Source of the DNA: Propionibacteriaceae bacterium | GTDB taxonomy: Bacteria > Actinomycetota > Actinomycetes > Propionibacteriales > Propionibacteriaceae | NCBI GenBank assembly: GCA_031266665.1 | Contig: JAISAO010000018.1 | Span: 1 to 33,053 of the forward strand | Length of the DNA stretch: 33,053 nucleotides | Direction of reading: 5' to 3' | In this document: positions 3,917 to 27,385 of the stretch, piece by piece | Layout of the letters: each line of letters opens with the position of its first letter | Position numbering within the stretch: the stretch's first letter is position 1 | Program-made: the position numbers and the translations under genes | The notes under the pieces: generated by a model | Seen by the model: only the letters and a program-made list of their open reading frames with translations | The model's database searches: none | Told to the model about the DNA's origin: nothing

Positions 3917-4247
3917 GGTAACCCCAGATCCACCGCTGATCGGCGTGGCGAGCGGCCCTAGTGGTCTGTCGCACCTAAAACGTCGGATTCGCGGCGCCGG
4001 GCGACGCCGCTGGCGGCGGTGTCGTCAGTCGGCGGGCGTCCAGCCTGCCTCCTTCCTCCGCCTTGCCATCGACATCGCCCGACACCGCTCATCACCCAAC
4101 TTTTAGATGCGACAGACCACTAGACGGGTGTGATGGCGGTGGGGCCATCGCGAAGGCGGACTGGACGTCCGTTAAGCGTCGGCACCGCCGTTAGCGCGCC
4201 CGGATGGGGATGCTCGGTAGTCGAGAAGCGGTGGATCTGGGGTAACC
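3917..4247. repeat. Palindromic-ended element A, interrupted by element E1
   Basis: The 21-base ends (left GGTAACCCCAGATCCACC followed by GCT, 3917-3937; its inverse at 4227-4247) match with one mismatch. Taking out the nested E1 insert and one CTAG copy leaves about 169 bp, close to the 166 and 164 bp of E1 and E2. Read on the minus strand, its interior aligns with the short relative at 23816-23897 over about 60 bases, including a shared ACGGCGGTGCCG (minus strand, 4180-4191). A smaller palindrome, ATCTGGGGTAACCCCAGAT, lies at 3911-3929. The right end stops 7 bases before the FKBP start codon, so the element forms that gene's leader. Confidence 0.7.
3958..4123. repeat. Palindromic-ended element E1, CTAG-bounded, nested in A
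   Basis: The ends are 23-base inverted repeats beginning CTAGTGGTCTGTCGCA and differing at one base (3958-3980 against 4101-4123). CTAG is present at both extremities and could be target or element sequence. There is no ORF, so it is MITE-sized and non-autonomous. The interior contains GGGCGACGCCGCTGGCGGCG and CGTCCAG (4037-4043). Both blocks are recognisable, in the same order, in the interior of A read on its minus strand, though the ends of A and E1 are unrelated. Confidence 0.75.
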
Positions 4248-4254
4248 TGCCCTG

Positions 4255-5337
4255 GTGAAGTTTCGCCCTCTGACCTCGGTCGGGGTCGCCCTCGGCTTGG
4301 CCCTGGCCCTCGCTCTGACCGCCTGCTCCGACGACGCGCCGGGGGGCGATGATTCCGCCAGCGCGCCGGTCGAAGCCAGCGCCTCGCCCGCCGCCACGCC
4401 GACCGCTGAAGACCAGCCGAGCGTCGAACCGTCCGCCGACGACGCCGGCGACGAGGCCAGCGTTGAGCCGACCGAGGAGTCCACGCCGCCGATCCCGGAG
4501 TCGACCGACCTCAGCGCCATCACGGTGACCGGCGAGCCGGGGACCAAGCCGGTTGTGACCGTGCCCGCCCCCTGGGCCATCAACCGCTCCCAGAACCGGG
4601 TGCTCAACCCGGGCGACGGCGCCTTGGTGCTGCCGGGCGACATCGTGCGGATCGACTACCTGGGCGTCAACGGCCGCACGGGCGAGGTCTTCGACAACTC
4701 CTACGACACGGGCGCGCCGGCCGTCTTCCCCCTCAGCGGTGTGGTGGCCGGCTTCGCCAAAGGTCTGACCGGCCAGCGGGTCGGCTCGCGCGTCCTGATG
4801 GCCATGCCCAGCGCCGACGGCTACGGCGACACCGGCTCGGGCGACGCCATCCAGGGCGGCGACTCGCTCATCTTTGTGGCCGAGATCAAGGCCGTCTCCC
4901 GTCAGTCGGTCTCCGGGACCGTGGCCGCCATCCCCGACGGCCTGCCTCTGGTGACCGGCGACCTCAAGCCCCAGGTGACCCTGCCGGCTGACGCCCGCCG
5001 GCAGGACACGCTGCAGGTCGTGACCCTGATCGAGGGCGACGGCCCGGAGGCCGGCTCCTACGCCCAACTCCAGGTCAACTACGTCGAGTACGCCTGGACG
5101 GCCGACAACCTGACCCAGGTCCGCCAGACCTACGGCACCGGCGCCGGCCCGGTCTACGCCACCTTGACCACGCCGACCGTCAACGCCTGGCTGGAGGGCC
5201 TGGCCCAGGTCAAGGAGGGCAGCCGGGTGCTGATCGTGGCCCCGCCAGACCAGGCCTACCCCAGCGGCAACTCCGCCCTCGGCGTGCCCAGGGGGGCTTA
5301 TTCGGTTTGGGTGGTCGACGTCTTGTTCGTCGCCTGA
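4255..5337 (+). CDS. Lipoprotein with two FKBP-type peptidyl-prolyl isomerase domains
   Basis: A 360-residue predicted lipoprotein: a hydrophobic signal segment ending in the lipobox LTAC, with lipidation at Cys24, then an acidic Ser/Pro/Glu-rich spacer to about residue 95. A first FKBP domain follows (about 125-217, GDIVRIDYLGVNGRTGEVFDNS, GVVAGFAKGLTGQRVGSRV). A second, more degenerate one (about 255-360) ends in YSVWVVDVLFVA. The second lacks several active-site aromatics and may be structural. The family catalyses proline cis-trans isomerisation, here outside the membrane. The GTG at 4255 starts the lipoprotein signal. In many actinobacteria FKBP genes neighbour pafBC, which here lies 19.6 kb downstream. 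Confidence 0.88.
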   Translation: MKFRPLTSVGVALGLALALALTACSDDAPGGDDSASAPVEASASPAATPTAEDQPSVEPSADDAGDEASVEPTEESTPPIPESTDLSAITVTGEPGTKPVVTVPAPWAINRSQNRVLNPGDGALVLPGDIVRIDYLGVNGRTGEVFDNSYDTGAPAVFPLSGVVAGFAKGLTGQRVGSRVLMAMPSADGYGDTGSGDAIQGGDSLIFVAEIKAVSRQSVSGTVAAIPDGLPLVTGDLKPQVTLPADARRQDTLQVVTLIEGDGPEAGSYAQLQVNYVEYAWTADNLTQVRQTYGTGAGPVYATLTTPTVNAWLEGLAQVKEGSRVLIVAPPDQAYPSGNSALGVPRGAYSVWVVDVLFVA

Positions 5338-5364
5338 GCCCGCGCCCCGGCCGCCCGGCCTGGG
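5338..5364. terminator. Possible bidirectional terminator between convergent genes
   Basis: The 27 bases between the FKBP stop and the stop of the leftward regulator contain the GC-rich hairpin GGCCGCCCGGCC with flanking complementarity. The position suits a shared terminator; there is no U-tract. Confidence 0.35.
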
Positions 5365-6042
5365 CTACTCGGGGCTGGCCCCGGTCTCCGGGGCGCCGGC
5401 CTCCAGTTGGTCGGTCTCCAACTGGTTGAGGTAGTTGTAGACCGTGAAACGGGTCACGCCCAGGGCTTGGGCGGCGGTCTCGACGCTCTCCCGCAAGGTG
5501 AAGAAACCACGTTCTTTGAGGTCGCGCACCACCGCCAGCTTGTGACGTTTGCGCATCAGCTCGACCGGCACCGCCGCCGCCTCCACGGCTTGGCGCAGGA
5601 CCTGGTGGGCCAAGGCGTCGACGTCCGGCAGCATGGTCTCGGCCGCCGGCTCGCCGGTCTCGGTCCAGGGCAGCATGGAGCGGGCCAACTCGGCCGCCAG
5701 CCGCCAGGAGCGGGTGTCGTTGTTGAGGCAGAGGGCGGCCACCGGGCGGTCGGCCGAGTCGCGCACGATGACGGTGGAGGAGCGCAACGCCTGGCCGTCG
5801 GGGCCGCGCCCGGCGTAGCCCAGCCGGGTCGAGTAGACGCCCTGGGCGTGGTCGCGCAGCAGGCGGTCGGTGGCCGGGCCGCCGACCTGGCGACCGGTCA
5901 GACCGCCGGCGATGGCGATGATGGAGTTGGGCAGCTGGTCCAAGTCGTGCAAGACGACCTCGCACTCGCCCGGCATGGTGGCGGCCAGCGGCTCGACCAG
6001 TCTGGCCAGGCAGCGCAGGATGGTTTGACGCTCGTCCATCAT
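5365..6042 (-). CDS. YheO/DauR-type transcriptional regulator (PAS-like + HTH)
   Basis: A 225-residue cytoplasmic regulator. The N-terminal PAS-like YheO domain (residues 1-115) includes EVVLHDLDQLPNSIIAIAGG and the RSSTVIVRDSADRPVAALCLN strand pair. The C-terminal HTH (about 160-215) reads KLAVVRDLKERGFFTLRESV and ALGVTRFTVYNYLNQLE. Members of this family control amino acid catabolism genes (DauR regulates D-arginine use). It is divergent from tryptophanase across a 282-base gap holding a palindrome over the tna promoter, so regulation of that operon in response to an amino acid is a reasonable inference. Start: two consecutive ATGs after a G-rich Shine-Dalgarno; the first is used. Confidence 0.88.
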   Translation of the reverse strand: MMDERQTILRCLARLVEPLAATMPGECEVVLHDLDQLPNSIIAIAGGLTGRQVGGPATDRLLRDHAQGVYSTRLGYAGRGPDGQALRSSTVIVRDSADRPVAALCLNNDTRSWRLAAELARSMLPWTETGEPAAETMLPDVDALAHQVLRQAVEAAAVPVELMRKRHKLAVVRDLKERGFFTLRESVETAAQALGVTRFTVYNYLNQLETDQLEAGAPETGASPE

Positions 6043-6205
6043 CCCCCGTTCCGAACCCGTCCGCCAGGCGTCGGCTCTGACAGCGGCCCGTCGGTCGCCG
6101 GGCCCGACCGACGGCCGACGCCGACTGCGGCAGTCGCCAACCGCGGTAGCCGACCGGCCCCAGTCTAACGCCGCTCGGAGAGCGGGGGCGGGAAGTGACG
6201 TGAGA

Positions 6206-6238
6206 ATCTGTTGATAGCTTCAACAGATCGTGTAATAT
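6206..6238 (+). promoter_or_regulatory. Promoter and overlapping operator of the tryptophanase operon
   Basis: TTGATA (6211-6216) and TAATAT (6233-6238) are separated by 16 bases, a strong sigma-70-type promoter in an AT-rich patch. ATCTGTTGA and TCAACAGAT (6206-6228, 9-base perfect arms, 5-base spacer) overlap the -35 box, so a bound dimer would block polymerase. The divergent YheO-type regulator is the natural candidate. The rest of 6043-6324 shows nothing coding and no tnaC-like leader peptide. Confidence 0.72.
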
Positions 6239-6324
6239 ACAGCTGAGCGGCGAGTCCGAGGGCGGGTGACGAGGCCCGGCCGGGGCGCCGCGCCGTGAAA
6301 CGATCTAGCTCAGCGAGGAGCGCC

Positions 6325-7701
6325 GTGAAATACATTGCCGAACCGTTCAAGATCAAGATGGTCGAGCCCCTGCGCCTGACCACGCCGGAGTACCGCCGCC
6401 AGGCCATCCAGCAGGCCCACTACAACGGTTTCGCCCTGCCGGCGGCCGACGTCTACATCGACCTCCAGACCGACTCCGGCACCGGGGCCATGAGCGACGC
6501 CCAGTGGGCCGGCCTGATGGTGGGCGACGAGTCCTACTCCGGGGGGCGCAGCTACTTCCGCCTGATGGCGGTGGCCCAAGACATCTTCGGCTACCAGTAC
6601 AACCAGCCGGTCCACCAGGGCCGCGCCGCCGAGAAGGTCGTCTTCCCGACCTTGACCCAACCTGGCCAATATTGGTTGTCGAACACCTTCTTCGACACCA
6701 CCCGGGGCCACGTCGGCCTGGCCGGCGGTCGCCCGGTCGACCTGGTCTGTCCCGAAGGCCTCGACACCGGGGCCTACGCCGATTTCAAAGGCAACATGGA
6801 TGTGGCGGCGCTGCGTGACTTCATCGTCCAACACGGCGTCGAGTCCATCGCCGGCATCGTCATGACGATCACCAACAACACCGTCGGCGGCCAGCCCGTC
6901 TCGGTGGCCAACATGCGCCAGGTGTCCCAGGTGGCGCGTGAGTTCGGCCTGCCGCTGCTGATCGACGCCGCCCGCTTCGCCGAGAACGCCCTGTTCGTCA
7001 AACAGCGCGAGCCCGAGTTCGCCCAGGCCTCGCTACGCCACATCACCAAAGAGATGTTCAGCTATGGCGACCTCTTCACGATGAGCGCCAAGAAAGACGC
7101 CATCGTCAGCATGGGTGGCCTGGTGGGGGTGCGCGACAACCCGGAACTGGTGGAGCGGATCAAGGCCAACGTCATCCCCTTCGAGGGTTACCTGACCTAC
7201 GGCGGCCTGGCCGGGCGCGACCTGGAGGCCATCGCCATCGGCCTGGAGGAGGGTCTGGACGAGGATTACCTGCGCTACCGCATCGGCCAGAGCCAATACC
7301 TGGCCGACCGCTTGGAGGCGGACGGCGTCCCCTTCCAGAGCCCGGTCGGCGGCCACGGCGTCTTCGTCGACGCCGGCCGGCTGCTGCCCCACATCCCCTG
7401 GCAGCAGTTCCCCGGCCACGCCCTGGCGATCGAGCTCTACCTGGAGGCCGGGGTCAGGGCCTGCGACATCGGCTCGCTGCTGATGGACCGCGACCCGGTG
7501 ACGGGCCAGCCCCAGCGGGCGCCGGCCGAGTTCACCCGGCTGGCCATCCCCCGCCGGGTCTACACCCAGGCCCACCTCGACGTAGTGGCCGACGCCCTGG
7601 CGGCCGTCAAGGACCGGGCGGATAGCGTTCCCGGCTACGAGATCGTCTGGGAGCCCAAGGTCCTGCGCCACTTCACCGCCCGGCTGAGGCCGGTGGGCTG
7701 A
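6325..7701 (+). CDS. tnaA: Tryptophanase (L-tryptophan indole-lyase)
   Basis: A 458-residue PLP enzyme that splits L-tryptophan into indole, pyruvate and ammonia. The PLP lysine is in MSAKKDA (Lys257). Substrate-specific residues favour tryptophanase over tyrosine phenol-lyase: FFDTTRGH (Asp124, the indole-contact Asp), GVRACDIGSLL where phenol-lyase has a RSMERG-like segment, and VLRHFTARL with His where phenol-lyase has Phe. GTG at 6325 is chosen because GAGGAG at 6315-6320 precedes it; an upstream GTG at 6295 would have no comparable site. The permease gene follows after 21 bases, forming an operon. By analogy with other bacteria, indole may act as a signal. Confidence 0.95.
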   Translation: MKYIAEPFKIKMVEPLRLTTPEYRRQAIQQAHYNGFALPAADVYIDLQTDSGTGAMSDAQWAGLMVGDESYSGGRSYFRLMAVAQDIFGYQYNQPVHQGRAAEKVVFPTLTQPGQYWLSNTFFDTTRGHVGLAGGRPVDLVCPEGLDTGAYADFKGNMDVAALRDFIVQHGVESIAGIVMTITNNTVGGQPVSVANMRQVSQVAREFGLPLLIDAARFAENALFVKQREPEFAQASLRHITKEMFSYGDLFTMSAKKDAIVSMGGLVGVRDNPELVERIKANVIPFEGYLTYGGLAGRDLEAIAIGLEEGLDEDYLRYRIGQSQYLADRLEADGVPFQSPVGGHGVFVDAGRLLPHIPWQQFPGHALAIELYLEAGVRACDIGSLLMDRDPVTGQPQRAPAEFTRLAIPRRVYTQAHLDVVADALAAVKDRADSVPGYEIVWEPKVLRHFTARLRPVG

Positions 7702-7722
7702 CCGATTCCCGGGAGAGCTACT

Positions 7723-9222
7723 GTGTCCAACGCTATGACTGAGACCGCTCAGCCCGGTCTACGCCGGGCCCTCAAAAACCGTCACATCCAGATGATCGCC
7801 CTGGGCGGGGCCATCGGCACGGGCCTGTTCTACGGCTCGTCCGAGTCCATCTCCATGGCCGGCCCGGCCATTCTGCTGGCCTACGTCATCGGCGGGGCGG
7901 TCATCTTCCTGGTCATCCGGGCGATGGGCGAGATGTCGGTCGACGACCCCCAGTCCGGGGCCTTCAGCCACTACGCCTACCGCAACTGGAGCCAACGGGC
8001 CGGCTTCGTCTCCGGCTGGAACTACTGGTTCAACTACATCCTGGTGTCCATGGTCGAACTGGCCGTGGTGGGACAATTCGTCAACTATTTCCTGCCCGGC
8101 GTGCCGGCCTGGGTGTCGGCGGCGGTCTTCCTGGTGGTGATCACGGCGGCCAACCTGATCGGGGTCAAAGCCTTCGGCGAGTTCGAGTTCTGGTTCGCCA
8201 TCATCAAGGTGGCGGCCGTCATCGGCATGATCGTCCTCGGCCTGGTGGTCGTCTTCGCCGGCATCCACGCCGCCTCGGCCGCCACCAGGCCCAGCTTCTC
8301 CCACCTATTCGACGTCGGCGGCGGCTTCCTGCCCTTCGGATTGATGTCGCAGGTCGACGGCGCCTGGGTGGGATTGTTGATGGCCCTGGTGGTGGTGATG
8401 TTCTCCTTCGGCGGGGTCGAATTGATCGGCATCACGGCGGGCGAGGCCGACAATCCCGGTAAGACCATCCCCAAAGCCATCAACCAGGTCATCTGGCGGA
8501 TCCTGGTCTTCTACGTCGGCGCCCTGGCCGTGATCATGGCGGTGGTGCCGTGGGACCAGGTCGGCGTGCCCAACGCCGACGGTGTGACGCTGAGCCCCTT
8601 CGTCCAAATCTTCGACTCGGTCGGCATCAAGGTGGCGGCCGCGATCTTGAACTTCGTCTGTCTGACGGCCGTGCTGAGCGTTTACAACTCGGGCTTGTAC
8701 TCCAACTCCCGCATGTTGTACTCCCTGGCCAACCAGGGCAACGCCCCGTCCTACCTGAAGCGATTGTCCAAATCCGGCACGCCTTACATGGGCGTGCTGA
8801 CCTCGGCCGGGATCACCGTCATCGCCGTGGTGGTGGTCTTCTTGTGGCCCGCCTTCGCCTTCAACTATCTGATGTCGATCGCCTTGATCTCCGGCATCAT
8901 CAACTGGACCATGGTCATGATCACGCAACGCAAATTCCGCCGCCGGATCGGCCCCGAGCAGGTGGGGCGGCTGAAGTTCAAACTGCCGGGGGCCGGCTGG
9001 GCCACCTGGGTGGTGCTGGCCTTCCTGGCGCTGGTGGTGGTCTTGATGCTGTTCTCGCCCGGCTACCGGGTGGCCGTCATCGTCGGCCCGCTGTGGCTGG
9101 GAGTCCTGCTGCTGGCCTTCCAGCTCAAACGCTCCCGCCAGCCCCAGCCGGAGCCGTCGGCCCCGGTGGCCGACGATCCCCAGCCATCGCCGGACCGCCC
9201 CGAGCCGCCTCTGACCTCCTGA
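7723..9222 (+). CDS. Amino acid permease, AAT family (probable tryptophan/aromatic transporter)
   Basis: A 499-residue inner-membrane protein with about 12 hydrophobic segments, of the amino acid/polyamine/organocation superfamily. The N-terminal LRRALKNRHIQMIALGGAIGTGLF is the classic AAT (AroP/GabP/CycA-like) signature, and SFGGVELIGITAGEADNPGKTIP is the conserved central loop. The C-terminal 30 residues are a Pro-rich cytoplasmic tail. GGGAGAG precedes the GTG at 7723; ATG at 7735 is an alternative. Its location directly after tryptophanase suggests it imports tryptophan, possibly as an indole-producing pair like tnaAB, though it belongs to a different family from E. coli TnaB. Substrate specificity is inferred from context only. 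Confidence 0.9.
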   Translation: MSNAMTETAQPGLRRALKNRHIQMIALGGAIGTGLFYGSSESISMAGPAILLAYVIGGAVIFLVIRAMGEMSVDDPQSGAFSHYAYRNWSQRAGFVSGWNYWFNYILVSMVELAVVGQFVNYFLPGVPAWVSAAVFLVVITAANLIGVKAFGEFEFWFAIIKVAAVIGMIVLGLVVVFAGIHAASAATRPSFSHLFDVGGGFLPFGLMSQVDGAWVGLLMALVVVMFSFGGVELIGITAGEADNPGKTIPKAINQVIWRILVFYVGALAVIMAVVPWDQVGVPNADGVTLSPFVQIFDSVGIKVAAAILNFVCLTAVLSVYNSGLYSNSRMLYSLANQGNAPSYLKRLSKSGTPYMGVLTSAGITVIAVVVVFLWPAFAFNYLMSIALISGIINWTMVMITQRKFRRRIGPEQVGRLKFKLPGAGWATWVVLAFLALVVVLMLFSPGYRVAVIVGPLWLGVLLLAFQLKRSRQPQPEPSAPVADDPQPSPDRPEPPLTS

Positions 9223-9256
9223 CCGGCCCGGCCGCTCGGCTGAGAGCCGACCAACT

Positions 9257-9298
9257 GCCCACCAGTCCGGTCTGCTGAAACAGGCCGGGCGGGTGGGC
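9257..9298 (+). terminator. Hairpin after the tna operon
   Basis: Outer arms GCCCACC (9257-9263) and GGTGGGC (9292-9298) enclose inner arms of CCGGTCTG and CAGGCCGG around a CTGAAA-containing loop. It sits 35 bases after the permease stop and is the likely end of the operon transcript. A second small hairpin, CCAGGCG/CGCCTGG, follows at 9301-9319. Confidence 0.6.
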
Positions 9299-9345
9299 GG
9301 CCAGGCGCCGTCCGCCTGGCCGACGCGGCGGGGTCCGGCCGGATC

Positions 9346-9392
9346 ATGCTCTCATGCTACGTGTAGCAAGATGGAGCATGACAAGAGAGCAT
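9346..9392. promoter_or_regulatory. Nested inverted repeats upstream of the quinone reductase gene
   Basis: TGCTACGTGTAGCA (9355-9368) is a perfect 6-base-arm palindrome. It lies inside wider arms ATGCTCTC (9346-9353) and GAGAGCAT (9385-9392), and TCATGCT/GAGCATGA units are repeated on both sides. This layout suits a dimeric or tetrameric repressor acting on the gene at 9494. No regulator gene lies adjacent. Confidence 0.5.
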
Positions 9393-9493
9393 GAGGCCGT
9401 GGCGCTGGCCGGCCGGAGCCGGTTTCGGCGGGTTGGGCGACGGATCGCTCCGCCTCTCGCGCGGTGGGACCGGCCTGATGGAAGACTGAATCC

Positions 9494-10084
9494 ATGCTGG
9501 TCCACATCGTCTACGCCCATCCGAGCGGCGACTCGTTCACCCACAGCCTGTTGGAGGCCTTCGTCGCCGGGCTGGACGAGGCCGGCCACCCTCACACGGT
9601 CTCCGACCTGTACGCGATGGACTTCAACCCGGTGCTGTCGTCGGACGAGTACGCGCGCGAGTCCAGTTACGCCGCCGACCGGCCGATCCCACAGGAGGTG
9701 GCCGCAGAGCAGGCCAAGCTTGACGCCGCCGATGGGTGGGCGTTCGTCTACCCGGTGTGGTGGAGCGACGTTCCGGCCATCTTGAAGGGCTGGTTCGACC
9801 GGGTGTGGACCGTCGGCTGGGCCTACCACCCGTCCAACCTGAGCCGGGCGCGGAAGGCGTTGGCGCTGTGCGCGGCGGGCCACACCGTCGAGCAGTTGCG
9901 CGAGACCGGCCTGTACCAGTCCATGCGGGCGGTCATGCTGGCCGACCGCGTCTTCGACCGCGCCGACGCCAAGCAGTTCCACCTGTTCGACGGCTCGGAG
10001 GCTATGACCGGCGACGAATGGCAGCGAGCCCGGCAGCGCCACCTGCAGCAGGCCCACAAGCTCGGACGAGAGATCGGAGCCTGA
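9494..10084 (+). CDS. NAD(P)H dehydrogenase (quinone), flavodoxin-like fold
   Basis: A 196-residue FMN/FAD-dependent reductase of the NQO1/MdaB/KefF type, which transfers two electrons from NAD(P)H to quinones or related electrophiles in the cytoplasm. The N-terminal VYAHPSGDSFTHSLLEAF is the flavin phosphate loop, followed by SDLYAMDFNPVL. FVYPVWWSDVPAILKGWFDRV is the family hallmark around the isoalloxazine site. Length is typical. It is monocistronic, with a palindrome-rich promoter, and may respond to a toxic quinone or electrophile. The link to neighbouring sugar or tryptophan genes is unclear. Confidence 0.9.
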   Translation: MLVHIVYAHPSGDSFTHSLLEAFVAGLDEAGHPHTVSDLYAMDFNPVLSSDEYARESSYAADRPIPQEVAAEQAKLDAADGWAFVYPVWWSDVPAILKGWFDRVWTVGWAYHPSNLSRARKALALCAAGHTVEQLRETGLYQSMRAVMLADRVFDRADAKQFHLFDGSEAMTGDEWQRARQRHLQQAHKLGREIGA

Positions 10085-10704: not shown

Positions 10705-10794
10705 ACCGGATCGCAGCGACGCCCCGAGGCCGGCTGGCGGCCGGTGGGTCTGATCCGAGGTGGGTCGCCCCCGCGCTCCGAGGGGCCGGAGGCG

Positions 10795-11589: not shown

Positions 11590-12629
11590 CCCTTCAGCCC
11601 CTGCGTGGCCACGCCCTCGATCAGGAAGCGCTGGAAGAACAAGAAGAAGAGCAGCACGGGGACGAGGGCGACGAAGCTGGCCGCCACCGTGGCCCCGTAG
11701 TCCGACGAGCTGGTGGCGTCGTTGAACAGCCGTAGCGCCACCGGCAGCGTGTAGTGCTCGGGCGAGGTCAGGTAGATGAGGGGGGAGAGGAAGTCGTTCC
11801 AGCTCCAGATGAAAGCGAAGATGGCGCTGGTGATCAAGGCCGGGCGGAGCAGCGGCAAGATGATGGAGAGGAAGATCCTCGGGTGGCCGGCGCCGTCGAT
11901 CCGGGCGGCCTCGTCCAGGTCGCGCGGGATGTTGCGGACGAACTGGACCATCAAGAAGACGAAGAAAGCCTCGCAGGCCAAGAATTTGCCCAGGACCAAC
12001 GGCACATAGGTGTCGATAAAACCCATCTTGTTGAACATGATGTATTGGGGGATGATGATGACGTGGAAGGGCAGCAGCAGCGTCCCGATCATGCCGGTGA
12101 AGAAGATCCCCGCGCCTGGGAACTTGATCCGGGCGAAGGCGTAGGCCGCCATCGAGGCCGAGGCCAAGGTGCCGACGACGGCCAGGCAGGCCACCAGCAG
12201 CGAGTTGAGGAAGAAGCGCGACAGCGGCACGCCGGCGATGCCCCGTAGCACCTTCTTGAAGTTGGCGATGGTGGCGTCCCAAGGGACCAGGGCGAAGTTG
12301 TGGCCGAACTCGCTCGACGGTTTGAAGGTGGCGAACCCCAGCCAGACCAGCGGGTAGAGGATGACGGCGGTCAGCGCCAGCAGGACGACGAACCAGACGA
12401 TGGTGGCGACCGGGTTGCGGCGGGGGCCGCCGATCCGGCGCAGGCGCTGGACCCAGGGGCGGACGGGCGCGGGCCTGGCGGCGGCGGGCGTGGCGGCGGC
12501 GGCAGGGGTGCCTGCGGCCGGGGTGCCTGCGGCCGGGGTGCCTGCGGTCGGAGTGGTGGCGGGCAGAGTGGCGGCGGGCGGAGTGGCGGCGGTCGGGGCG
12601 GCGGCGGGCGTGGCGGTCGGGTCTGTCAT
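11586..12629 (-). CDS. Carbohydrate ABC transporter permease, MalG type
   Basis: A 347-residue integral membrane subunit of a CUT1-type sugar importer. Six hydrophobic segments follow residue 70. The cytoplasmic EAA loop reads EAARIDGAGHPRIFLSIILPLLRPAL, the contact site for the ATPase subunit, and the C-terminus ATQGLKG is typical of MalG. The N-terminal 55 residues are an unusual Ala/Pro/Thr string with three tandem GTPAA units encoded by a 15-bp repeat (12507-12551). That region is unlikely to be membrane-embedded. The start overlaps the stop of the MalF-type gene (ATGA), so translation is coupled. Confidence 0.93.
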   Translation of the reverse strand: MTDPTATPAAAPTAATPPAATLPATTPTAGTPAAGTPAAGTPAAAATPAAARPAPVRPWVQRLRRIGGPRRNPVATIVWFVVLLALTAVILYPLVWLGFATFKPSSEFGHNFALVPWDATIANFKKVLRGIAGVPLSRFFLNSLLVACLAVVGTLASASMAAYAFARIKFPGAGIFFTGMIGTLLLPFHVIIIPQYIMFNKMGFIDTYVPLVLGKFLACEAFFVFLMVQFVRNIPRDLDEAARIDGAGHPRIFLSIILPLLRPALITSAIFAFIWSWNDFLSPLIYLTSPEHYTLPVALRLFNDATSSSDYGATVAASFVALVPVLLFFLFFQRFLIEGVATQGLKG

Positions 12630-15223: not shown

Positions 15224-15266
15224 CCTTGATTCACCGCTCGCCCCGGAGAGCAGCGGTGGATCAGGG
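15224..15266 (-). terminator. Hairpin ending the oxidoreductase operon
   Basis: CCTTGATTCACCGCT (15224-15238) pairs with AGCGGTGGATCAGG and beyond (15252-15266) with two G-U pairs around a 13-base loop. It lies just past the stop codon of the leftward oxidoreductase gene. The stem sequence (GATCCACCGCT) is the same core seen in the ends of elements A and B. Confidence 0.65.
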
Positions 15267-15267
15267 C

Positions 15268-16413
15268 TCAGCGCAGGTCGACGACCTGGGAGCGGAATGA
15301 TCGCCGGTGCGTCGGGTGGACGGCCAGGGCGGCCGGCGTGACGGGGGCGCCGCCGGCGTCGGCGCTGGCGTAGATGGCGGCCACGATCTCCAAGGCCCGG
15401 GCCCCGGCGGCGGCCGTGTCGGGCAGCGGGGCGCCTTGAAGCAGGGCGTCGAAGACGTCGCGCAGCAGCGGGGCATGGCCGGAGGCCTCCGCCGCCGGGG
15501 GGAAGGCCCAGCCGGCGGCCTCGGCCGGGGGCACGTCTGGCGCCGGCGTGATCGACCAGTTGTCAAGGCCGTGGCCGTAGAGGTGGTCGAGGCTGACGGT
15601 CGCCCTGGTCGTGTCGATCCGGATCGAACTGGTCTGGCGGGGCGAGATGGCGCTGGAGACGGCGTTGGCGATGACCCCGCTGGCGAAGCGGATGGTGGCG
15701 GTCGAGACGTCCTCGGTCTCGGTGGCGCGGGCCAGGCGCCAGAGCTGGGCCCGGACCTCGGCCCAATCGCCCAGCAGGAAGGCCAACAGGTCGAGTTGGT
15801 GGATGCCGTGGCCCAGCGTGGTGCCGCCGCCCTCGGTCTGCCAACGGCCGCGCCAGGGGACGGCGAAGTAGGCCGCGTCGCGGTGCCACAGGGTCAGGCA
15901 CTGGGCCAGCAGCGGGCGGCCCAGGGCGCCGGCTTGGAGCAGGCGGCGGACGTGGGCGGCGGCCGTGCCTGTGCGCTGCTGGAAGACGACGGCCAACTGG
16001 CGGTCGGCCGCCCGGGCGGCGGCCAGCATGTCGTCCAGTTGGTCGAGCGACGCCGCCGGGGGCTTCTCGACCACGACGTGGGCGCCGGCGGCGAAACTGT
16101 CCAGCGCCTGTTGGCGGTGGGCCTCGGGCGGCGTGCAGATGAGCACCACGTCCGGGCGCTCGGCCGCCAGCAGGTCTTGGTGGTTGTCGTAGACGGCGGG
16201 GCCGCCCCACTGGGCGGCGAAGGCCTCGGCCTTGGGCCGGTGGCGGTTGGTCACGGCCACCAGGGTGGCCCGGGGATGGGCGGCGACGGCGCGGGCGTGG
16301 AGGTGGGCCACGGCGCCGGTGCCGACGATGGCGCAGCGCAGACGGGTCGGGCGGGTCATAGGCTCCCGGGCGGTCCCGGCGGCCAGAGCGGTGGCCGGGG
16401 TCGGGCGGGTCAT
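15268..16413 (-). CDS. Gfo/Idh/MocA-family sugar oxidoreductase
   Basis: A 381-residue NAD(P)-dependent dehydrogenase family member acting on sugars or sugar derivatives in the cytoplasm. The Rossmann fold starts at LRCAIVGTGAVAHLHARAV. The catalytic-site EKP motif is in VVEKPPAASLDQLDDML, and HGIHQLDLLAFLLGDWAEV is the conserved C-domain segment. The ATG at 16413 overlaps the upstream stop (ATGA). A second ATG at 16359 gives MTRPTRLRCAIVG and is probably the ancestral start, because a tandem duplication has copied the start region and added 18 residues. Last gene of the four-gene leftward operon from 19421. Confidence 0.92.
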   Translation of the reverse strand: MTRPTPATALAAGTAREPMTRPTRLRCAIVGTGAVAHLHARAVAAHPRATLVAVTNRHRPKAEAFAAQWGGPAVYDNHQDLLAAERPDVVLICTPPEAHRQQALDSFAAGAHVVVEKPPAASLDQLDDMLAAARAADRQLAVVFQQRTGTAAAHVRRLLQAGALGRPLLAQCLTLWHRDAAYFAVPWRGRWQTEGGGTTLGHGIHQLDLLAFLLGDWAEVRAQLWRLARATETEDVSTATIRFASGVIANAVSSAISPRQTSSIRIDTTRATVSLDHLYGHGLDNWSITPAPDVPPAEAAGWAFPPAAEASGHAPLLRDVFDALLQGAPLPDTAAAGARALEIVAAIYASADAGGAPVTPAALAVHPTHRRSFRSQVVDLR

Positions 16414-20874: not shown

Positions 20875-20892
20875 TTGGAAAGCGCTTGCTAA
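20875..20892. promoter_or_regulatory. LacI-type operator of the SDR-flavoprotein operon
   Basis: TTGGAAAGCGCTTGCTAA, symmetric at most positions around a central CG, 70 bases before the SDR start. Its left half equals that of operator O1. Clear -35 and -10 boxes could not be assigned here. Confidence 0.68.
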
Positions 20893-20962
20893 GAGTCCTG
20901 GAGGCGTGCCATGATCGGCCTGGGCCGCGTTCCGCCGGCCCAATCCAGCGAAGGAGGCGACG

Positions 20963-21793
20963 ATGCCCCCCGTGGCCCTCGTCACCGGCGGCAGCCGCGG
21001 GATCGGCCTGGGCGTCTCCCGGCGCCTGCTCCAAGACGGCTTCGCCGTCGCCATTCTGGCCCGGCGGCCCTCCCCGGCGGCGGTCGCGGAGTTGCGGGCC
21101 GAGGCCGGGGAGGACCGCGTTCTCTACCTCCAGGGCTCGGTGGCCGACCTGGCCGACCAGCGGCGCTACCTCGACGCCGCCCTGGAGCGGTGGGGCCGCC
21201 TCGACCTCCTGGTCAACAATGCCGGTGTCGCCCCGGCGGTCCGGGCCGACCTGCTTGAGGCCACGCCCGAGTCCTTCGACCGGGTGCTCGGAGTCAACCT
21301 GCGCGGCCCCCACTTCCTCACCCAGGCCTTCGCCCGGGCCGTGCTCGGCCACCGCCTCGACCCGCCGCCCCCCGACTCTCGGGCGGCCTGGTCCGAGAGC
21401 GCTGGCGGTGCCGGAGCCGACCCGCCGGACCGGCCCCTGGCCACCATCGTCAACATCTCATCCATCTCGGCCACGGCCGTGTCCACAGACCGCGGCGACT
21501 ATTGCCTGTCCAAAGCCGGCCTGGCCATGGCGACCCAGCTGTGGGCCGTCCGCCTGGCGCCCGTGGGCATCGTCGTCTACGAGGTCCGGCCGGGGATCAT
21601 CGCCACCGATATGACGGCCGCCGCGCGCGCCAAGTACGACCAGTTCTTGGCCGACGGCCACCTCCCGATCGCCCGCTGGGGCCGGCCGGCCGACGTGGCG
21701 GCGGCGGTGTCGCTGCTGGCCGCGGGCGGGACACCGTACTCGACCGGGGAGGTCTTCCACGTCGACGGCGGCCTCCACACCCCCGTCCTCTGA
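20963..21793 (+). CDS. SDR-family oxidoreductase (3-oxoacyl-ACP reductase-like)
   Basis: A 276-residue short-chain dehydrogenase. The cofactor loop is TGGSRGIGLGV at residues 8-18; LLVNNAGVAP, NISSISAT (catalytic Ser) and YCLSK (catalytic Tyr/Lys near residue 180) complete the classical SDR set. VRPGIIATDMT and the C-terminal YSTGEVFHVDGG are typical. Between the NLRGPHFL helix and the Ser strand there is an extra Pro/Ala-rich insert of about 30 residues (DPPPPDSRAAW and after), unusual for the fold. AAGGAGG precedes the ATG. The flavoprotein gene follows after 16 bases. A sugar or sugar-acid dehydrogenase role is suggested by context. Confidence 0.9.
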   Translation: MPPVALVTGGSRGIGLGVSRRLLQDGFAVAILARRPSPAAVAELRAEAGEDRVLYLQGSVADLADQRRYLDAALERWGRLDLLVNNAGVAPAVRADLLEATPESFDRVLGVNLRGPHFLTQAFARAVLGHRLDPPPPDSRAAWSESAGGAGADPPDRPLATIVNISSISATAVSTDRGDYCLSKAGLAMATQLWAVRLAPVGIVVYEVRPGIIATDMTAAARAKYDQFLADGHLPIARWGRPADVAAAVSLLAAGGTPYSTGEVFHVDGGLHTPVL

Positions 21794-21809
21794 GTCGGTG
21801 GGGGCCACG

Positions 21810-23819
21810 ATGACGCGCCAGCCGGAAAGCCTCCGGATCGCCGGCCGGGATGTCCCCGTGCTGACGGCGACGACCGTCGTGGCGGGGGCGGGCGCGGCCG
21901 GGCTGCGGGCGGCCGAGGCGTTGGCCGAGCGCGGCCAAGACGTCATCGTCGTGACCGACCGGCTCAAAGCCGGCACCTCGCGCAACGCCGGCTCCGACAA
22001 ACAGACCTACTACAAGCTGACGCTGGCCGGGGCGGCCGGTGACTCCGTGCGCGAACTGGCCGCCACCCTCTTCGCCGGCGGGGCCATGGACGGCGACACC
22101 GCCGTGGCCGAGGCCGCCTGGTCGGCCCGGGCCTTCTCCCACCTGGTCGAGGCGGGCGTCCCCTTCCCGGCCAACGACCACGGCGAGTACATCGGCTACA
22201 AGACCGACCACGACCCCCGCCAGCGGGCCACCTCGGCCGGGCCGTGGACCAGTCGGTCCATGGTCGAGCGCCTGGAGGGGCGCGTCCGCCGGCTGGGCGT
22301 GGAGGTGGTCGACCACTGCCGGGTGGTCGACCTCATCGTCTCGGGGGTCGGCGACGGCGCCCGGGCGGTCGGGCTGTTGCTGCTGCGGACCGAGGCCCCG
22401 GTGGGCGACGCCTCCCCCTTCCTGCTCGTCCGGGCGGCCCAGGTCGTCCAGGCCACCGGCGGGCCGGCCGGGCTGCACGGCCGTAGCGCCTACCCCCGTG
22501 GCCAGTGGGGGGCGTCCGGGGCGGCGCTGAGGGCCGGAGTGGTGGCCCAGAACCTGACCGAGTGGCAGTTCGGGCTGGCCTCCGTGGCGCCGCGCTGGAA
22601 TGTCTCCGGCAGCTACCTCCAAGCCCTGCCCCGGATCGTCTCGACCGCTGCCGACGGCTCGGACGAGCGCGAGTTCGTGGCCGACGCCCTGGGCGACTAC
22701 GGCCGGCTCGTGACCTGGACCTTCCTCAAGGGCTACCAGTGGCCCTTCGACATCCGCAAGGCGTCCGACGGCTCGTCGGTGATCGACCTCATCGTCGGCC
22801 GCGAGCTGGCCCGGGGCCGGCGCGTCTGGCTCGACTTCCGGGCCGACCCGGGCGGCCGGCCGCTCGACCCGGCGGCCCTGGCGCCCGAGGCCCGGGCCTA
22901 CCTGACGGCCGCCGGGGCGCTGTCCGGCCGGCCGGTCGAGCGCCTCCGCCGCCTGAACCAGCCGGCCTACCGCCTCTACCTCGAGCGCGCGCCGAGGACC
23001 GACCTGGCGGCCGAGCCGCTGGAGGTGGCCGTCGGCGTCCAACACCACAATGGTGGTTTGGCAGTCGACGACTGGTGGCAGACCTCGCTGGCCGGGTTGT
23101 TCGCGGTCGGCGAGGCGGCCGGCTGCCACGGGGTCTACCGGCCCGGCGGGGCGGCCCTCAACAGCGGCCAGGTCGGCGCCCTGCGGGCGGCCACACGGAT
23201 CGTCGCCGACCACTGGGCCGTGGCCGACGAGGTCGACTTCAGGGCCGCCGCCGCCCCCGTGGTGACGGCCGCCTCGGATCTGGTGGCGGCCGCCGCCGCC
23301 CGTTTCGCGACCGGCCGGGCCGAGACCGGGGCCGCCACCCTGGCCGCCCTGCAACAACTCTTCGACGACCACGTCGGCCTGGTCCGCTCGGCCGCGTCGG
23401 TCGGCCGGGCGCTGGACCAGGTGACGGCCTGGGACCAGGCCCTGGCCGCCACGGCTGTGGCCGACGCCTCATCCCGGCGCTCCCTCGACCGGCTCTTCCT
23501 GGGCCGCGACCTGCTGCTGGTGGCTCGCGTCTGCTTGACGGCCCTGGCCGACTACGCCGCCTTGGGCCGCTCTCGCGGCTCGGCCCTGTGGACCGACCCG
23601 GCGGGCCGGCCGCCGCTGGCCGGGGCGGCCGGGGCGGCCTGGCCGGACGAGTTCCGCTTCCGCCTCGACGCCGGCGCCCTGGACGACCGCGTCCAGCAGG
23701 CGCGGCACGACGCCGCCAGCGGCGCGACCACGCTGACCTGGCGGCCCCGTCGGCCCCTGCCGCCGCCGGACGACCAGTTCGAGACCGTCTGGCGGTGCCA
23801 CCGCCAGGCCGTGGACTAG
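21810..23819 (+). CDS. FAD-binding oxidoreductase, SdhA/FrdA-like flavoprotein
   Basis: A 669-residue flavoprotein. The dinucleotide fold VVAGAGAAGLRAAEALAERG starts near residue 22, followed by the RLKAGTSRNAGSD flavin loop and QATGGPAGLHGR. The C-terminal FAD segment is LAGLFAVGEAAGCHGVYRPGG, then AALNSGQVGALRAA, the fumarate reductase/succinate dehydrogenase flavoprotein signature. HHNGGLAVDDWWQT corresponds to the substrate-capping part. A long C-terminal helical domain follows. No Fe-S or membrane anchor partner is present, so it is a soluble dehydrogenase or reductase of unknown substrate. ATG 21810 is used, with the GGTGGGGG tract as ribosome site. The TAG stop lies inside the CTAG that begins the following repeat. 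Confidence 0.87.
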   Translation: MTRQPESLRIAGRDVPVLTATTVVAGAGAAGLRAAEALAERGQDVIVVTDRLKAGTSRNAGSDKQTYYKLTLAGAAGDSVRELAATLFAGGAMDGDTAVAEAAWSARAFSHLVEAGVPFPANDHGEYIGYKTDHDPRQRATSAGPWTSRSMVERLEGRVRRLGVEVVDHCRVVDLIVSGVGDGARAVGLLLLRTEAPVGDASPFLLVRAAQVVQATGGPAGLHGRSAYPRGQWGASGAALRAGVVAQNLTEWQFGLASVAPRWNVSGSYLQALPRIVSTAADGSDEREFVADALGDYGRLVTWTFLKGYQWPFDIRKASDGSSVIDLIVGRELARGRRVWLDFRADPGGRPLDPAALAPEARAYLTAAGALSGRPVERLRRLNQPAYRLYLERAPRTDLAAEPLEVAVGVQHHNGGLAVDDWWQTSLAGLFAVGEAAGCHGVYRPGGAALNSGQVGALRAATRIVADHWAVADEVDFRAAAAPVVTAASDLVAAAAARFATGRAETGAATLAALQQLFDDHVGLVRSAASVGRALDQVTAWDQALAATAVADASSRRSLDRLFLGRDLLLVARVCLTALADYAALGRSRGSALWTDPAGRPPLAGAAGAAWPDEFRFRLDAGALDDRVQQARHDAASGATTLTWRPRRPLPPPDDQFETVWRCHRQAVD

Positions 23820-23897
23820 ATCCACCGCTGCTCGACTACCGGGCGACCTCATCCGGACGCGCTGACGGCGGTGCCGCCGCTCATAAGCGGTGGATCT
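23816..23897. repeat. Short palindromic element B between convergent genes
   Basis: AGATCCACCGCT (23818-23829) and AGCGGTGGATCT (23886-23897) are perfect 12-base inverted arms. The left end is CTAG (23816-23819), whose TAG is the flavoprotein stop. The right end lies 4 bases from the gluQRS stop. The interior aligns over about 60 bases with element A (minus strand), including CTCGACTACCG and ACGGCGGTGCCG (23865-23876). It is about half the length of the other elements. It may also serve as the bidirectional terminator for both genes. Confidence 0.72.
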
Positions 23898-23901
23898 GGG
23901 C

Positions 23902-24819
23902 TCAGACCTGGCCCAGGTCGAGGATCTGCCGGGGCACAATCCACTCTGTCGCCGGCAGCTTGGACCAGTCGAATCCCGTCACCATCTCGGCCGCTGTCGC
24001 CTGCTCCGGGCAGTCCAGGCCGAGGGAGCGGGCCAGCAGGGCCACCACCTGTCCGACGCTCCAGCCCCGCCGGCGTAGGCGGGCCAGGCCGATGGCACCG
24101 TCGCGTTTGGCCAGCCGGCCGCCGTCTGGGGCGACGGCCAGGGGCAGGTGGGCGTATTGGGGCACCGCCAGGCCCAACTGGCGGGCCAGCCAGGCCTGGC
24201 GCAGGGCCGAGCTGAGCAGGTCGGCCCCCCGCACCACCTGGTCCACCCCTTGGCAGGCGTCGTCCACCACGACGGCGAAGTTGTAGGCGAATAGGCCGTC
24301 GCCCCGGCGGATGACGAAATCGTCCACCGTCCCGGATGTCGGGCCGGCCAACTGGTCGGTCAGGGCGACCACGGCTCCCTCGGCCCGCACCCGGAGGGCG
24401 GGCGGGCGCGAACGCCGCCTCTCGGCCCGCTCGGCCGCGCTGAGGTCGCGGCAGGTCCCCGGGTAGGGCCGCAGGCCGTCGTCACCGTGGGGGGCGACAG
24501 TCGCCCGGGCGATCTCCTGGCGGGAGCAGAAGCACTCGTAGGTCAAGCCGTCGAGCCGCTCCAGGGCCTTCTCGTAGGCGGCGGTCCGCGCCGACTGCCA
24601 GACGACCGGGCCGTCGTGGGTCAGGCCCAAGGCCGCCAGGTCGTCCAATTGGCGGGCGGCGATGGGGCCGGCGGCGGCGATGCGGTCCCGGTCCAGGTCC
24701 TCGACCCGCAGGCGGAAGCGGCGGCCGGAGCTCCGGGCCGCCAGCCAGGCCGCCAGGGCGGTGCGCAGGTTGCCCAAGTGCAGGTCGGAGGTCGGCGTGG
24801 GCGCGAAACGTCCGGCCAT
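23902..24819 (-). CDS. gluQRS: Glutamyl-Q tRNA(Asp) synthetase
   Basis: A 305-residue paralogue of the glutamyl-tRNA synthetase catalytic domain that attaches glutamate to the queuosine base of tRNA(Asp). The HIGH-type motif is PTPTSDLHLGNLRTA at residues 8-22, the KMSKS-type motif is GRLAKRDGAI, and zinc ligands are the CFC pair (ECFCSRQEI) with YPGTC downstream. There is no anticodon-binding domain, and the length matches the family. GGAGGTGG precedes the ATG at 24819. It is divergent from pafBC across 156 bases. It implies that the cell makes or salvages queuosine. Confidence 0.94.
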   Translation of the reverse strand: MAGRFAPTPTSDLHLGNLRTALAAWLAARSSGRRFRLRVEDLDRDRIAAAGPIAARQLDDLAALGLTHDGPVVWQSARTAAYEKALERLDGLTYECFCSRQEIARATVAPHGDDGLRPYPGTCRDLSAAERAERRRSRPPALRVRAEGAVVALTDQLAGPTSGTVDDFVIRRGDGLFAYNFAVVVDDACQGVDQVVRGADLLSSALRQAWLARQLGLAVPQYAHLPLAVAPDGGRLAKRDGAIGLARLRRRGWSVGQVVALLARSLGLDCPEQATAAEMVTGFDWSKLPATEWIVPRQILDLGQV

Positions 24820-24975
24820 GGCCACCTCCGGCGGGGTTCGGCGTCGTGGGAACCTCCGCCGACCGACCATAGTGGACCAGCCCCAGCAGCGCCGGGCGGC
24901 GCGGTCCCGCCTGCCCGAGAATCGGCCCGCCAGATGACAGGATGGCACCGTACGCTTCCGACCCTGGGACAACCG
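24820..24975. promoter_or_regulatory. Divergent promoter region gluQRS/pafBC
   Basis: A 156-base gap between divergent starts. No strong -35/-10 pair stands out and no clear palindrome was found. The motif TTGTCRGTG associated with PafBC-dependent promoters is not present. Confidence 0.4.
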
Positions 24976-27225
24976 ATGGCATCACGTAAGCCCGAACGGC
25001 TGCTCAATCTCGTTATCTGCTTGTTGGTGACCCGACGCTTCCTAACCCGCGACCAGATCAGGGAATCGGTCGAGGGCTATGCCGAGCTGACAGCGGTGGC
25101 TTTCCGCCGGGCCTTCGAGCGGGACAAAGACGAGTTGCGCCGGCTGGGGGTGCCGCTGGAGGTCGGGTCGGCCGAGGATTGGGGTGGCGTGGTCGACGGC
25201 TACCGCATCCGCCGGGGCGATTTCGAGTTGCCGGTCATAGAGCTGACCGGGGTCGAGTCGACCCTGGTCGGTCTGGCCACCCGGGTGTGGCAGGAGGCCA
25301 CCCTCGACGCCGCCACCGGCCGGGCCATCGCCAAGTTGACAGCCGGCGGGGTCGGCATCAGCCCCGAACGCCTGGTGGCGGTGGCCCCCAGCCTGCCGAC
25401 GCGCGAGGCCGGTTTCGCCGTCTTCTGGCAGGGCTGGCTGACCCGATCCCCGATCCGCTTCGTCTACCACGGCCGCCGCCGCGACTTCGAGCCTTGGCAA
25501 CTAGTCTTGCGTCAGGCCAGTTGGTACGCCCTGGGCCGCGACCGGACGGCCGGCGTCAGAGCCTTCAAGCTGTCCCGGGTCGAGGGCCAGCCGGTCCTGT
25601 TGACCGGCCAGCCACCCTTCCCGCCGCCCGACCCGGCCGAGTTGGCCGCCCACCGCCGCCTGCTGGAGGCCCCCGAGCCGGTCCACCAGGCGCTGGTGGC
25701 GATCCGCCCCGACACCGCCCCCGCCCTGCGCCGTCGCGGCCGTCCTGCTGAGGGTCGGGCCCCGGAGGGCTACAACCTGGTGGCGGTGCCCTACGCCCGC
25801 CCGGACGAGATCGTGGGCGAGGCCGCCGCCGCCGGGGCCGACGCCTTGGTGCTAGAGCCGCTGGAGCTGCGCGCCCAGGTGTTGGAGCGACTGCGCCAGG
25901 TGGCCGCCGCTGGTCAACCGGACCAGCCGGCCACGTCTGAGGCGGCCACGTCTGGACCGGCCACGTCTGAGCCGGCCGGGTCTGAGTCGATCACGTCCCG
26001 GGCGGCCACAGCGGGGTCGGCCACAGCGGCCGCAGTCGGGGTGGAGGACGTGTCTGAGTCGGTCACGCCGGGGTCGCTCACGTCGGGGTCGGTCGGTTCG
26101 GCTGCGGTCGGTGCGGAGGCCACAGCGGGGTCGGCCACAGCGGCTGAGGCCGGGGCGGCGGAGGGGTCGGGAGCGGCTGGACCAGTTGTGGCCCAGGCAG
26201 TGCCAGCCACTAGTCGGGCGGCCCGACCGGGGTCTGGGGCCATGCCAGGCACGGCCGGCAAGGCCTCGGAGGCGGTCGACCAGGTGGCACGGCTGCTGCT
26301 GCTCATCCCCTACTTGCAGAGCCACCCCGGGATCAGCCTGAGCCAGGCCGCCGCCGCCCTCGGCCTGGCCCCCGAGCAGGTCCGGGGCGACCTGGCGGTG
26401 GCCTTCATGTGTGGCCTGCCGGGCGGGCTGCCGGGCGATCTGATCGAGATCGATCTTGATCTGGTGGACGACGAGGGCGTGGTCTATCTCAGCAACGCCG
26501 AGGTCCTGAGCCGCCCGCTACGGCTCAACCCGGACGAGGCCATGGGCCTGATCGTGGCCCTGCGGGCGGTGCGCCAGGTGGCGGCCGGCGACCTGCACCA
26601 GGTCATCGACACCCTCTTGGCCAAGCTGGCCGCCGTCGCCCCCGGCCCGCCGCCGACGCCGCCGGCCCTGGAGTTGGCGGCCGGCCTGGACACCACCCGG
26701 GAGCGCCTGTTCGGGGCCATCAGCCAGGCCCAGCGGGTCCGTCTGACCTATTACGGGGCCAGTCGGGGCCAGACCAGCCGGCCGCTGGTCGATCCGGCGC
26801 GACTATTCACCTCCGACGGCGTGGCCTACCTGTCGGCCTGGTCCGTCGGGCGCGATGCCTGGCGCACCTACCGTCTGGACCGGATCGCCGCTGTCGAGCC
26901 GACCGGCGACCTGGCCCAGGCCCACGGTCGCGAGCCGGCGGCCGACTCCTGGCTCCAAACCCTGGCCCAGGCCCGGCCGGTCCGGCTGCGGGTCCGGCCG
27001 GCGGCCCAGTGGATGGTCGAGTACTACCCCACCCAGGGGCTGACGCGCCTGCCGGACGGCGACCTCGAGGTCACCTTGCCGGTGGCCGATCCGGCCTGGT
27101 TGCGCTGGCTGCTGCTGCGCCTGGGGCCAGACGTGACACTGTTGGACGACCCGGCGGCGGCGGCCGACGCCGCCCAAGCCGCCACCGCCGCCCTGGCCGC
27201 CTACGCCGCCGCCGGCCTGGCCTAG
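24976..27225 (+). CDS. pafBC: Fused PafB-PafC WYL-domain transcriptional regulator
   Basis: A 749-residue fusion of the two paralogous subunits that together control the RecA-independent DNA damage response in mycobacteria. The PafB half (1-315) has an N-terminal HTH (RLLNLVICLLVTRRFLTRDQ) and a WYL domain with SWYALGRDR and FKLSRVEG. Residues about 316-432 are a Thr/Ser/Ala/Gly-rich linker with ATS repeats. The PafC half (about 433-749) has VARLLLLIPYLQSHPGISL, the CGLPG-PGDLIEI hallmark and a WYL domain (AYLSAWSVGRDAWRTYRLDR). ATG 24976 fits the domain start. The TAG stop lies in the CTAG that opens element E2. A pafA gene is not in the window. Confidence 0.93.
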   Translation: MASRKPERLLNLVICLLVTRRFLTRDQIRESVEGYAELTAVAFRRAFERDKDELRRLGVPLEVGSAEDWGGVVDGYRIRRGDFELPVIELTGVESTLVGLATRVWQEATLDAATGRAIAKLTAGGVGISPERLVAVAPSLPTREAGFAVFWQGWLTRSPIRFVYHGRRRDFEPWQLVLRQASWYALGRDRTAGVRAFKLSRVEGQPVLLTGQPPFPPPDPAELAAHRRLLEAPEPVHQALVAIRPDTAPALRRRGRPAEGRAPEGYNLVAVPYARPDEIVGEAAAAGADALVLEPLELRAQVLERLRQVAAAGQPDQPATSEAATSGPATSEPAGSESITSRAATAGSATAAAVGVEDVSESVTPGSLTSGSVGSAAVGAEATAGSATAAEAGAAEGSGAAGPVVAQAVPATSRAARPGSGAMPGTAGKASEAVDQVARLLLLIPYLQSHPGISLSQAAAALGLAPEQVRGDLAVAFMCGLPGGLPGDLIEIDLDLVDDEGVVYLSNAEVLSRPLRLNPDEAMGLIVALRAVRQVAAGDLHQVIDTLLAKLAAVAPGPPPTPPALELAAGLDTTRERLFGAISQAQRVRLTYYGASRGQTSRPLVDPARLFTSDGVAYLSAWSVGRDAWRTYRLDRIAAVEPTGDLAQAHGREPAADSWLQTLAQARPVRLRVRPAAQWMVEYYPTQGLTRLPDGDLEVTLPVADPAWLRWLLLRLGPDVTLLDDPAAAADAAQAATAALAAYAAAGLA

Positions 27226-27385
27226 ATGGTTAATTCCAAGCCATGGGCTCGTCCTCACTCCCAGGCGACGCGCCGGCGGCGTCCTCGTCGGTCGGCGATG
27301 CCACACATCGCCTCTCTCCTTATTCCTGGCCGGCCCGCCGTCTGAGCGCGAATCCATCGCCCAGCCCTTGGAATTAACCATCTAG
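27222..27385. repeat. Palindromic-ended element E2, CTAG-bounded, at the pafBC stop
   Basis: CTAGATGGTTAATTCCAAG (27222-27240) and its exact inverse (27367-27385) form perfect 19-base ends. CTAG at each extremity could be element or duplicated target. There is no ORF. The interior (GGCGACGCGCCGGCGGCG, TCGGTCGGCG, GCCTCTCTCC) follows the same order of blocks as E1, although the ends differ completely. Excision at CTAG would leave pafBC with the same TAG stop, which suggests harmless insertion at that stop codon. Confidence 0.78.

Follow-up and report, generated by a model that had tools for sequence, protein, structure and literature searches.

Small palindromic elements of Actinomycetota and Bacillota that combine a conserved, folded core with variable but mutually complementary ends

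How can short DNA elements resemble each other in their interior and carry inverted ends that differ from one element to the next, each end remaining complementary to its own partner? This question is raised by a contig of a Propionibacteriaceae bacterium (GCA_031266665.1, JAISAO010000018.1, positions 1 to 33,053; this whole stretch of 33,053 nucleotides is called the window below). An original prediction, made from the letters alone, had singled out three segments (A without its insert, E1 and E2) and a fourth, B, that aligned with A over about 60 bases. The positions of the three segments were right within a few bases, and B shows an 88% match to the right part of A over 64 nt. The elements are listed below with their parts; R1 denotes a covariance model trained without E2 or A.

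3919-3921: TAA, left copy of the 3-bp duplication of A
3922-4242: A, whole, interrupted by E1 (A minus the insert is 3922-3957 plus 4124-4242)
3922-3957, plus strand: left part of A, with the arm CCCCAGATCCACCGCT
3958-4123, minus strand (sense, that is, better-folding strand): E1, 166 bp, CTAG...CTAG, inserted in A
3958-3961: left CTAG at E1; a single CTAG stands in paralogous empty sites
3982-4099, minus strand: structured core of E1, match to R1 with 101 bits (E1 is a member of the training set)
4120-4123: right CTAG at E1
4124-4242, plus strand: right part of A, with a diverged core, as seen in intact A copies, and the arm AGCGGTGGATCTGGG
4243-4245: TAA, right copy of the 3-bp duplication of A
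15226-15268: short hairpin made of A-family arms only (by eye)
23816-23905: B, a copy of the A family with the core deleted and both arms retained
27222-27385, minus strand: E2, 164 bp, CTAG...CTAG, starting at the TAG stop codon of a WYL-domain gene
27243-27364, minus strand: core of E2, match to R1 with 38.4 bits (E2 is outside the training set)

The window also contains a 47-base palindrome (CTAATCCCGACTAT...ATAGTCGGGATTAG) at 3730-3776, upstream of A, perhaps a further small hairpin element. A direct repeat of about 40 bases (GTCGTGCTCC...GGCCCCG) at 3811-3897 adjoins A, and 15-bp imperfect tandem repeats at 12454-12613 lie inside a minus-strand permease reading frame.

The elements are repeated in the genome to which the window belongs (G000; 3.28 Mb, 106 contigs). 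E1 has 16 copies covering at least 85% of the element, and E2 is found at at least 40 places with 89-100% identity, two of which end at contig ends. For A/B, at least 40 places were scored; most of these matches span no more than 31-73 bases, as the short copy B served as query. Several contigs of this genome end inside these elements (C16, C17, C31, C49, C79, C96 and C102), as do many of G547, so that copy numbers are probably lower bounds. A pattern built on the arms of E2 gave 53 + 53 matches in the own genome versus 1 + 1 for a control pattern. The termini are sharp, with CTAG at both ends in 27 of the 30 extracted E2 copies. Among the extracted copies of one family the arms are near-identical; the ends had been predicted to differ completely between elements, which is true between families and not among the copies of a single one. 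Moreover, core-less derivatives exist: one of E2 (64 bp) occupies four sites with one junction, and one of E1 (88 bp) was found by pattern at four sites, three of which were read. Unless identical deletions recurred, the arms may thus suffice for spread. The recurrence of these minis at several sites suggests that an element can jump without the core; if the arms alone suffice, the core may contribute to efficiency, to protection or to tolerance by the host.

For E1, empty sites were found. Five of 23 other A rows (L044, L046, L054, L060, L109) read GGCC-CTAG-RCG, a sixth has CTAG behind other letters, and the remaining rows are diverged at the E1 site. The single CTAG indicates that E1 inserted there, duplicating CTAG (or TA within CTAG). 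A second A, at C4:12147-12453, carries E1 at the same position; the nested unit may therefore be copied, or the site was hit twice. As for E2, the congener G012 has no element at the orthologous place just past the end of the WYL gene: the gene end, with a different stop codon, is followed by sequence that resembles, by eye, the start of the next gene. G006 and G009 match the end of the WYL gene and then differ, which is uninformative on the absence of E2.

Copies of A have identical 3-bp TNA flanks in 16 of 23 cases, which makes 32 of 46 rows when both strands are counted, against a shuffled mean of 13.9; the search pattern favoured TNA, not the identity of the two flanks. In two Bacillota genomes, 20 of 25 copies are flanked by identical TTA or TAA (15 TTA, 5 TAA; Fisher p 0.0013 on the 22 copies with TTA or TAA on both sides). 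The duplications are TA-centred, being CTAG for E1 and E2, TNA for A and TWA in the two Bacillota genomes; ANT was not seen. Small size, many dispersed copies, terminal inverted repeats, target duplication and an empty site are among the features by which MITEs are recognised, and these are present. From their size and fold, the elements would be non-coding.

With a codon-composition ORF heuristic, all 41 placed copies of E1 and E2 are intergenic. Their orientation to genes shows no bias (20 same, 19 opposite, 2 undetermined). In ten of the 41, including the copy at 27222 in the window, the element and the 3' end of a gene have exactly four bases in common, because the TAG stop codon is part of the CTAG target.

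The elements typically measure 155-170 bp, with inverted arms of about 16-28 bp. Between elements, arm identity is 0.42 versus 0.38 after shuffling, a value somewhat lowered by misplaced element starts, whereas the core boxes reach 0.90. The left and right arms of one element match at 16 or more of 20 positions in 68 of 86 elements, and swapped pairs do so in only 16 of 253 cases. The median match is 18 of 20 for own arms and 12 for swapped partners under the same optimisation, the boundaries having been optimised for swapped pairs too and six of 92 elements without full flanks having been excluded. Arms that are near-random between elements and nevertheless match within each of them, around a constant core, are what the original prediction had described. 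It had also proposed a mobile family with unusual end recognition. Mobility is supported by the copies and by the empty sites of E1; the recognition need not be unusual within a genome, since each arm type forms a multi-copy family of its own. What is unusual is one core common to many end types. Two loci of Streptomyces sp. NBC_00572 (L280, L285) are mosaic or nested elements with left and right arms of differing types.

The common core was recovered with R1 in elements on which this model was not trained. E2 scores 38.4 bits (E 8.7e-9). Among 25 A loci, R1 detects the core in 12 with E below 0.01 (best 3e-9), each time on the strand that the orientation of the A copy predicts. Matches in the remaining A loci are weaker or absent, and the A of the window itself, split by E1, gives only 10 bits (E 1.5). 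These matches to E2 and A, together with the covariation counts given below, rule out that the core is shared by chance; a core no more alike than shuffled sequence and a lack of further copies were the outcomes that would have spoken against the family, and neither occurred. In addition, one locus of a congener (L137) has E2-type arms around an E1-like core.

Further copies are also present in other genomes. BLAST of A plus E1 against 146 relatives gave matches in ten further members of the genus and in eight genomes from the order's other families; most relatives match the interior of E1 only, and G008, G009, G014 and G017 match the arms too. With E2 as query against the same 146 relatives, only G013 and G017 were found beyond the own genome, both weakly. 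One arm type is common to the congeners G002 and G015 and to a record of Propionibacteriaceae bacterium TD116_bin43 (L200). An exact, gapped pattern of the core retrieved at least 119 stretches; among the 80 listed, 69 are from Actinomycetota and 11 from Bacillota, as judged by title. With 28 fixed bases, we estimate that essentially no chance matches are expected, and the invariance of the core in the loci found in this way is partly due to ascertainment. In many of these loci 57-58 bases separate the core from either end of an element of 166 bp; other loci have a longer or shorter element, or lack clear arms. Across sampled Actinomycetota, with at most nine candidates scored per genome, R1 finds the core at E<=1e-4 in 39 of 396 genomes, and in 27 of 237 genera, which is a lower bound. 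Of 20 loci from this sample, 12 measure 159-168 bp, five 170-190 bp, and three have no resolved extent. Loci L219-L257 were used only in whole-set scans, such as the empty-site comparison and the locus scan for ends, and the one-ended copies L325-L339 were excluded from counts.

Spread by viruses was considered and rejected: the exact core pattern gave 0 stretches in viral contigs, and two elements had no match in a phage collection. When a Blautia element was compared with plasmids, 22 records matched. Seventeen are from Streptomyces and match only via query positions 47-113, that is, the core; the five others are weak matches inside genes. Against plasmids, the variant L133 gave weak matches only and L271 none. 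In Rfam, 12 loci gave 0 matches at gathering score. A literature search outside ISfinder and most subscription papers, which included PMC2267715 and PMC3733652, found no description of the core or of the family.

Folding z-scores are -8.7 for E1 and -8.2 for E2. The predicted core consists of a stem, a conserved internal helix and a covarying apical hairpin. In the internal helix, G-C pairs are predicted to alternate with GA-containing internal loops, two symmetric (GA/GA) and one asymmetric (GA/GACAA). The pair 51-85, a G-C pair of this conserved part, varies to G-U and A-U. A kink-turn reading of the GA helix was discarded: the standard kink-turn motif has its bulge on a defined side, and the bulge is here on the wrong one.

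Covariation was counted on 54 sequences with the structure taken from one Streptomyces element (alignment A2, 53 of 83 non-redundant cores plus the window, 30 being omitted; alignment A1 holds 41 sequences). Paired cells amount to 83.4% versus 64.4% after shuffling, double-changed cells to 457 versus 184 expected, and the covariation score is 0.498 versus 0.185; none of these values is reached by any of 500 shuffles. Further pair types number 117 versus 107, which 2 of 500 shuffles reach, and pairs changed on both sides 32 versus 30, which is not exceptional (85 of 500). When partners are slid by one column, pairing falls to about one third. The outermost helix is weak (57% paired), and RNAalifold on the whole-element alignment returns only 18 pairs. 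With three of five measures exceeding all 500 shuffles, the suggestion of a structured repeat under selection for pairing is supported.

The two strands are not equivalent. The sense strand, which carries GCAAGGCGGAGGAGGGAG, is the better folder by energy in all 67 elements and by z-score in 62 of 67, and G.U pairs number 401 on this strand versus 114 on the other (67 elements); these strand counts, like the count for the arms given below, omit 27 of 92 elements with an arm score under 12. G.U outnumbers A.C by 236:47, or by 174:58 with a structure taken from the antisense fold. In 16 BLAST-found sequences of the window's genus and order the ratio is 62:8, and in Bacillota the asymmetry is weak (30:21 and 34:19 in 8 sequences). 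For the arms only, the ratio is 64:21; in E1 and E2 much of the arm wobble falls on one position each, so that few positions are independent. Since orientation to genes is random, the strand asymmetry looks like a property of the element. The single-strand fold may be formed by RNA or by single-stranded DNA, and a strand-biased mutation process may be an alternative source of the asymmetry.

Which enzyme could move such elements? TNA and CTAG duplications occur in IS5 subgroups, and the duplications alone point to a putative mobiliser of the IS5/Harbinger kind. In PMC4482050, TWA, as in the Bacillota copies, is given for PIF/Harbinger, and ANT for bacterial IS5, to which the TNA of A does not correspond. 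The elements differ from PIF/Harbinger and IS5 as described there in that A has TNA and E1 and E2 have CTAG, and arm patterns revealed no autonomous-looking element with matching ends in the genomes covered below. In the own genome, no paired ends enclosing a gene were found with arm patterns, apart from an IS110 insertion in E2. The same holds for four Streptomyces genomes with complete lists of matches and for two Bacillota genomes, in which 27 and 65 ends match, where no end pair encloses a gene; the Streptomyces search covered 27 of 120 places in one further genome and 0 of 50 in another, and five other Bacillota genomes have only 0-2 arm matches each. In twenty Streptomyces stretches with single ends, most of the ten ends read are truncated or mosaic. 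A scan of the loci for ends of the single form [CT]TA[GA]NG found no partner. Two candidates were rejected. In L282 two perfect ends face inward at a distance of 3.2 kb, but the right one closes a 60-bp hairpin. A 1552-bp end pair on contig C8, considered as a parental IS, is an E2 copy holding an IS110-family gene. This copy (L095:1021-2572, G000:C8:2020-3571) contains the transposase gene (PF01548, PF02371) with a long 5' non-coding end. Its junction lies, by eye, in a conserved core box, and IS110 may thus use these elements as targets.

Taken together, it is fairly probable that A, E1 and E2 represent three branches of a single old superfamily of MITE-like, non-autonomous transposons whose fold is also under selection. 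A conserved, folded core inside varying, mutually pairing ends suggests that it is as a single strand, of RNA or DNA, that the core folds and functions. The arms would be bound by a transposase acting in trans, probably one of the IS5/PIF-Harbinger type, and would turn over when the element changes transposase. The whole element would in addition be under selection for folding of the strand that carries GCAAGGCGGAGGAGGGAG, in the form of either a transcript or a hairpin of single-stranded DNA, in which the core would act as a recognition module. A more far-reaching proposal, which we put forward tentatively and consider rather less than likely, is a class of elements in at least two phyla with a structured RNA or ssDNA-hairpin module of its own, a core selected on one strand and arms re-matched to successive transposases, in which folding would aid recognition, mobilisation or protection.

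If the elements were ordinary IS-derived MITEs, each family being an internally deleted IS and the core a remnant of a shared ancestral IS, the inverted ends, the target duplications, the young multi-copy families and the core-less minis at several sites would find a simple explanation. However, a remnant should show neither compensatory changes nor one-strand wobble, and between elements the core boxes agree at about 90% although the arms are near random. The partner search, in effect limited to the own genome, four Streptomyces and two Bacillota genomes, gave no parental IS. We regard this origin as unlikely. Mobile elements acting as single-stranded DNA, with hairpin recognition of the HUH or RAYT/REPIN style and pairing selected on the DNA strand, agree with the one-strand wobble, which fits an ssDNA hairpin as well as RNA, and with the lack of a flanking transposase in our searches. 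HUH chemistry, however, is not known to yield target duplication by staggered double-strand insertion, the mode indicated here by a target duplicated on both sides, and this makes such a mechanism quite improbable. Host-selected RNA hairpins, such as terminators or mRNA stability elements spread passively and kept paired by selection on neighbouring genes, are more improbable still: the very stable folds, the 41 of 41 intergenic copies and the ten overlapping a gene 3' end by CTAG would suit them, but one strand folds better in 67 of 67 elements with no orientation bias to genes, and the core is retained across two phyla that differ in GC content.

MITEs are usually viewed as leftovers of ISs in which the ends are conserved and the middle has no meaning. 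If A, E1 and E2 are lineages of one superfamily, they reverse this view, with a middle conserved in Actinomycetota and Bacillota and ends that are interchangeable. A conserved, compensating middle makes the idea of a functional folded module in bacterial MITEs directly testable, and the same elements allow a direct test of what moves orphan palindromic repeats. Moreover, intergenic DNA that lacks annotation can be screened for such elements with R1 and the core pattern. The IS110 bridge RNA and IS605 omega RNA systems likewise combine a conserved, structured non-coding part with variable parts; the elements were compared with them through Rfam only. Here, unlike in these RNAs, the variable parts are the closing arms and not guide loops, and no associated protein was found.

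The blocks AAGGCGG and CAACGC, which we take to be ERIC-like, had suggested kinship with ERIC; when two ERIC copies from E. coli (L258, L259) were scored with R1, neither matched at E<=10. According to PMC2229807 and PMC10969869, bacterial MITEs such as Correia/NEMIS, RUP and ERIC/IRU are alike in short length, inverted TA-type ends, target duplication, stable stem-loops and mostly intergenic placement. ERIC/IRU of enterobacteria is likewise described there (PMC2229807) as a long imperfect palindrome with TA ends; at 127 bp, ERIC is unlike the typical 155-170 bp of the present elements. What sets the latter apart from bacterial MITEs is one sequence-and-structure core in two phyla with unrelated arm types, and strand-specific signs of selection for pairing. 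Finally, a variant core in G010 (L133:1472-1592) retains the flanking boxes and scores 60 bits with R1; where part of the GA helix would be expected, it seems to have a Watson-Crick stem (CCGATG/ATCGG) instead.
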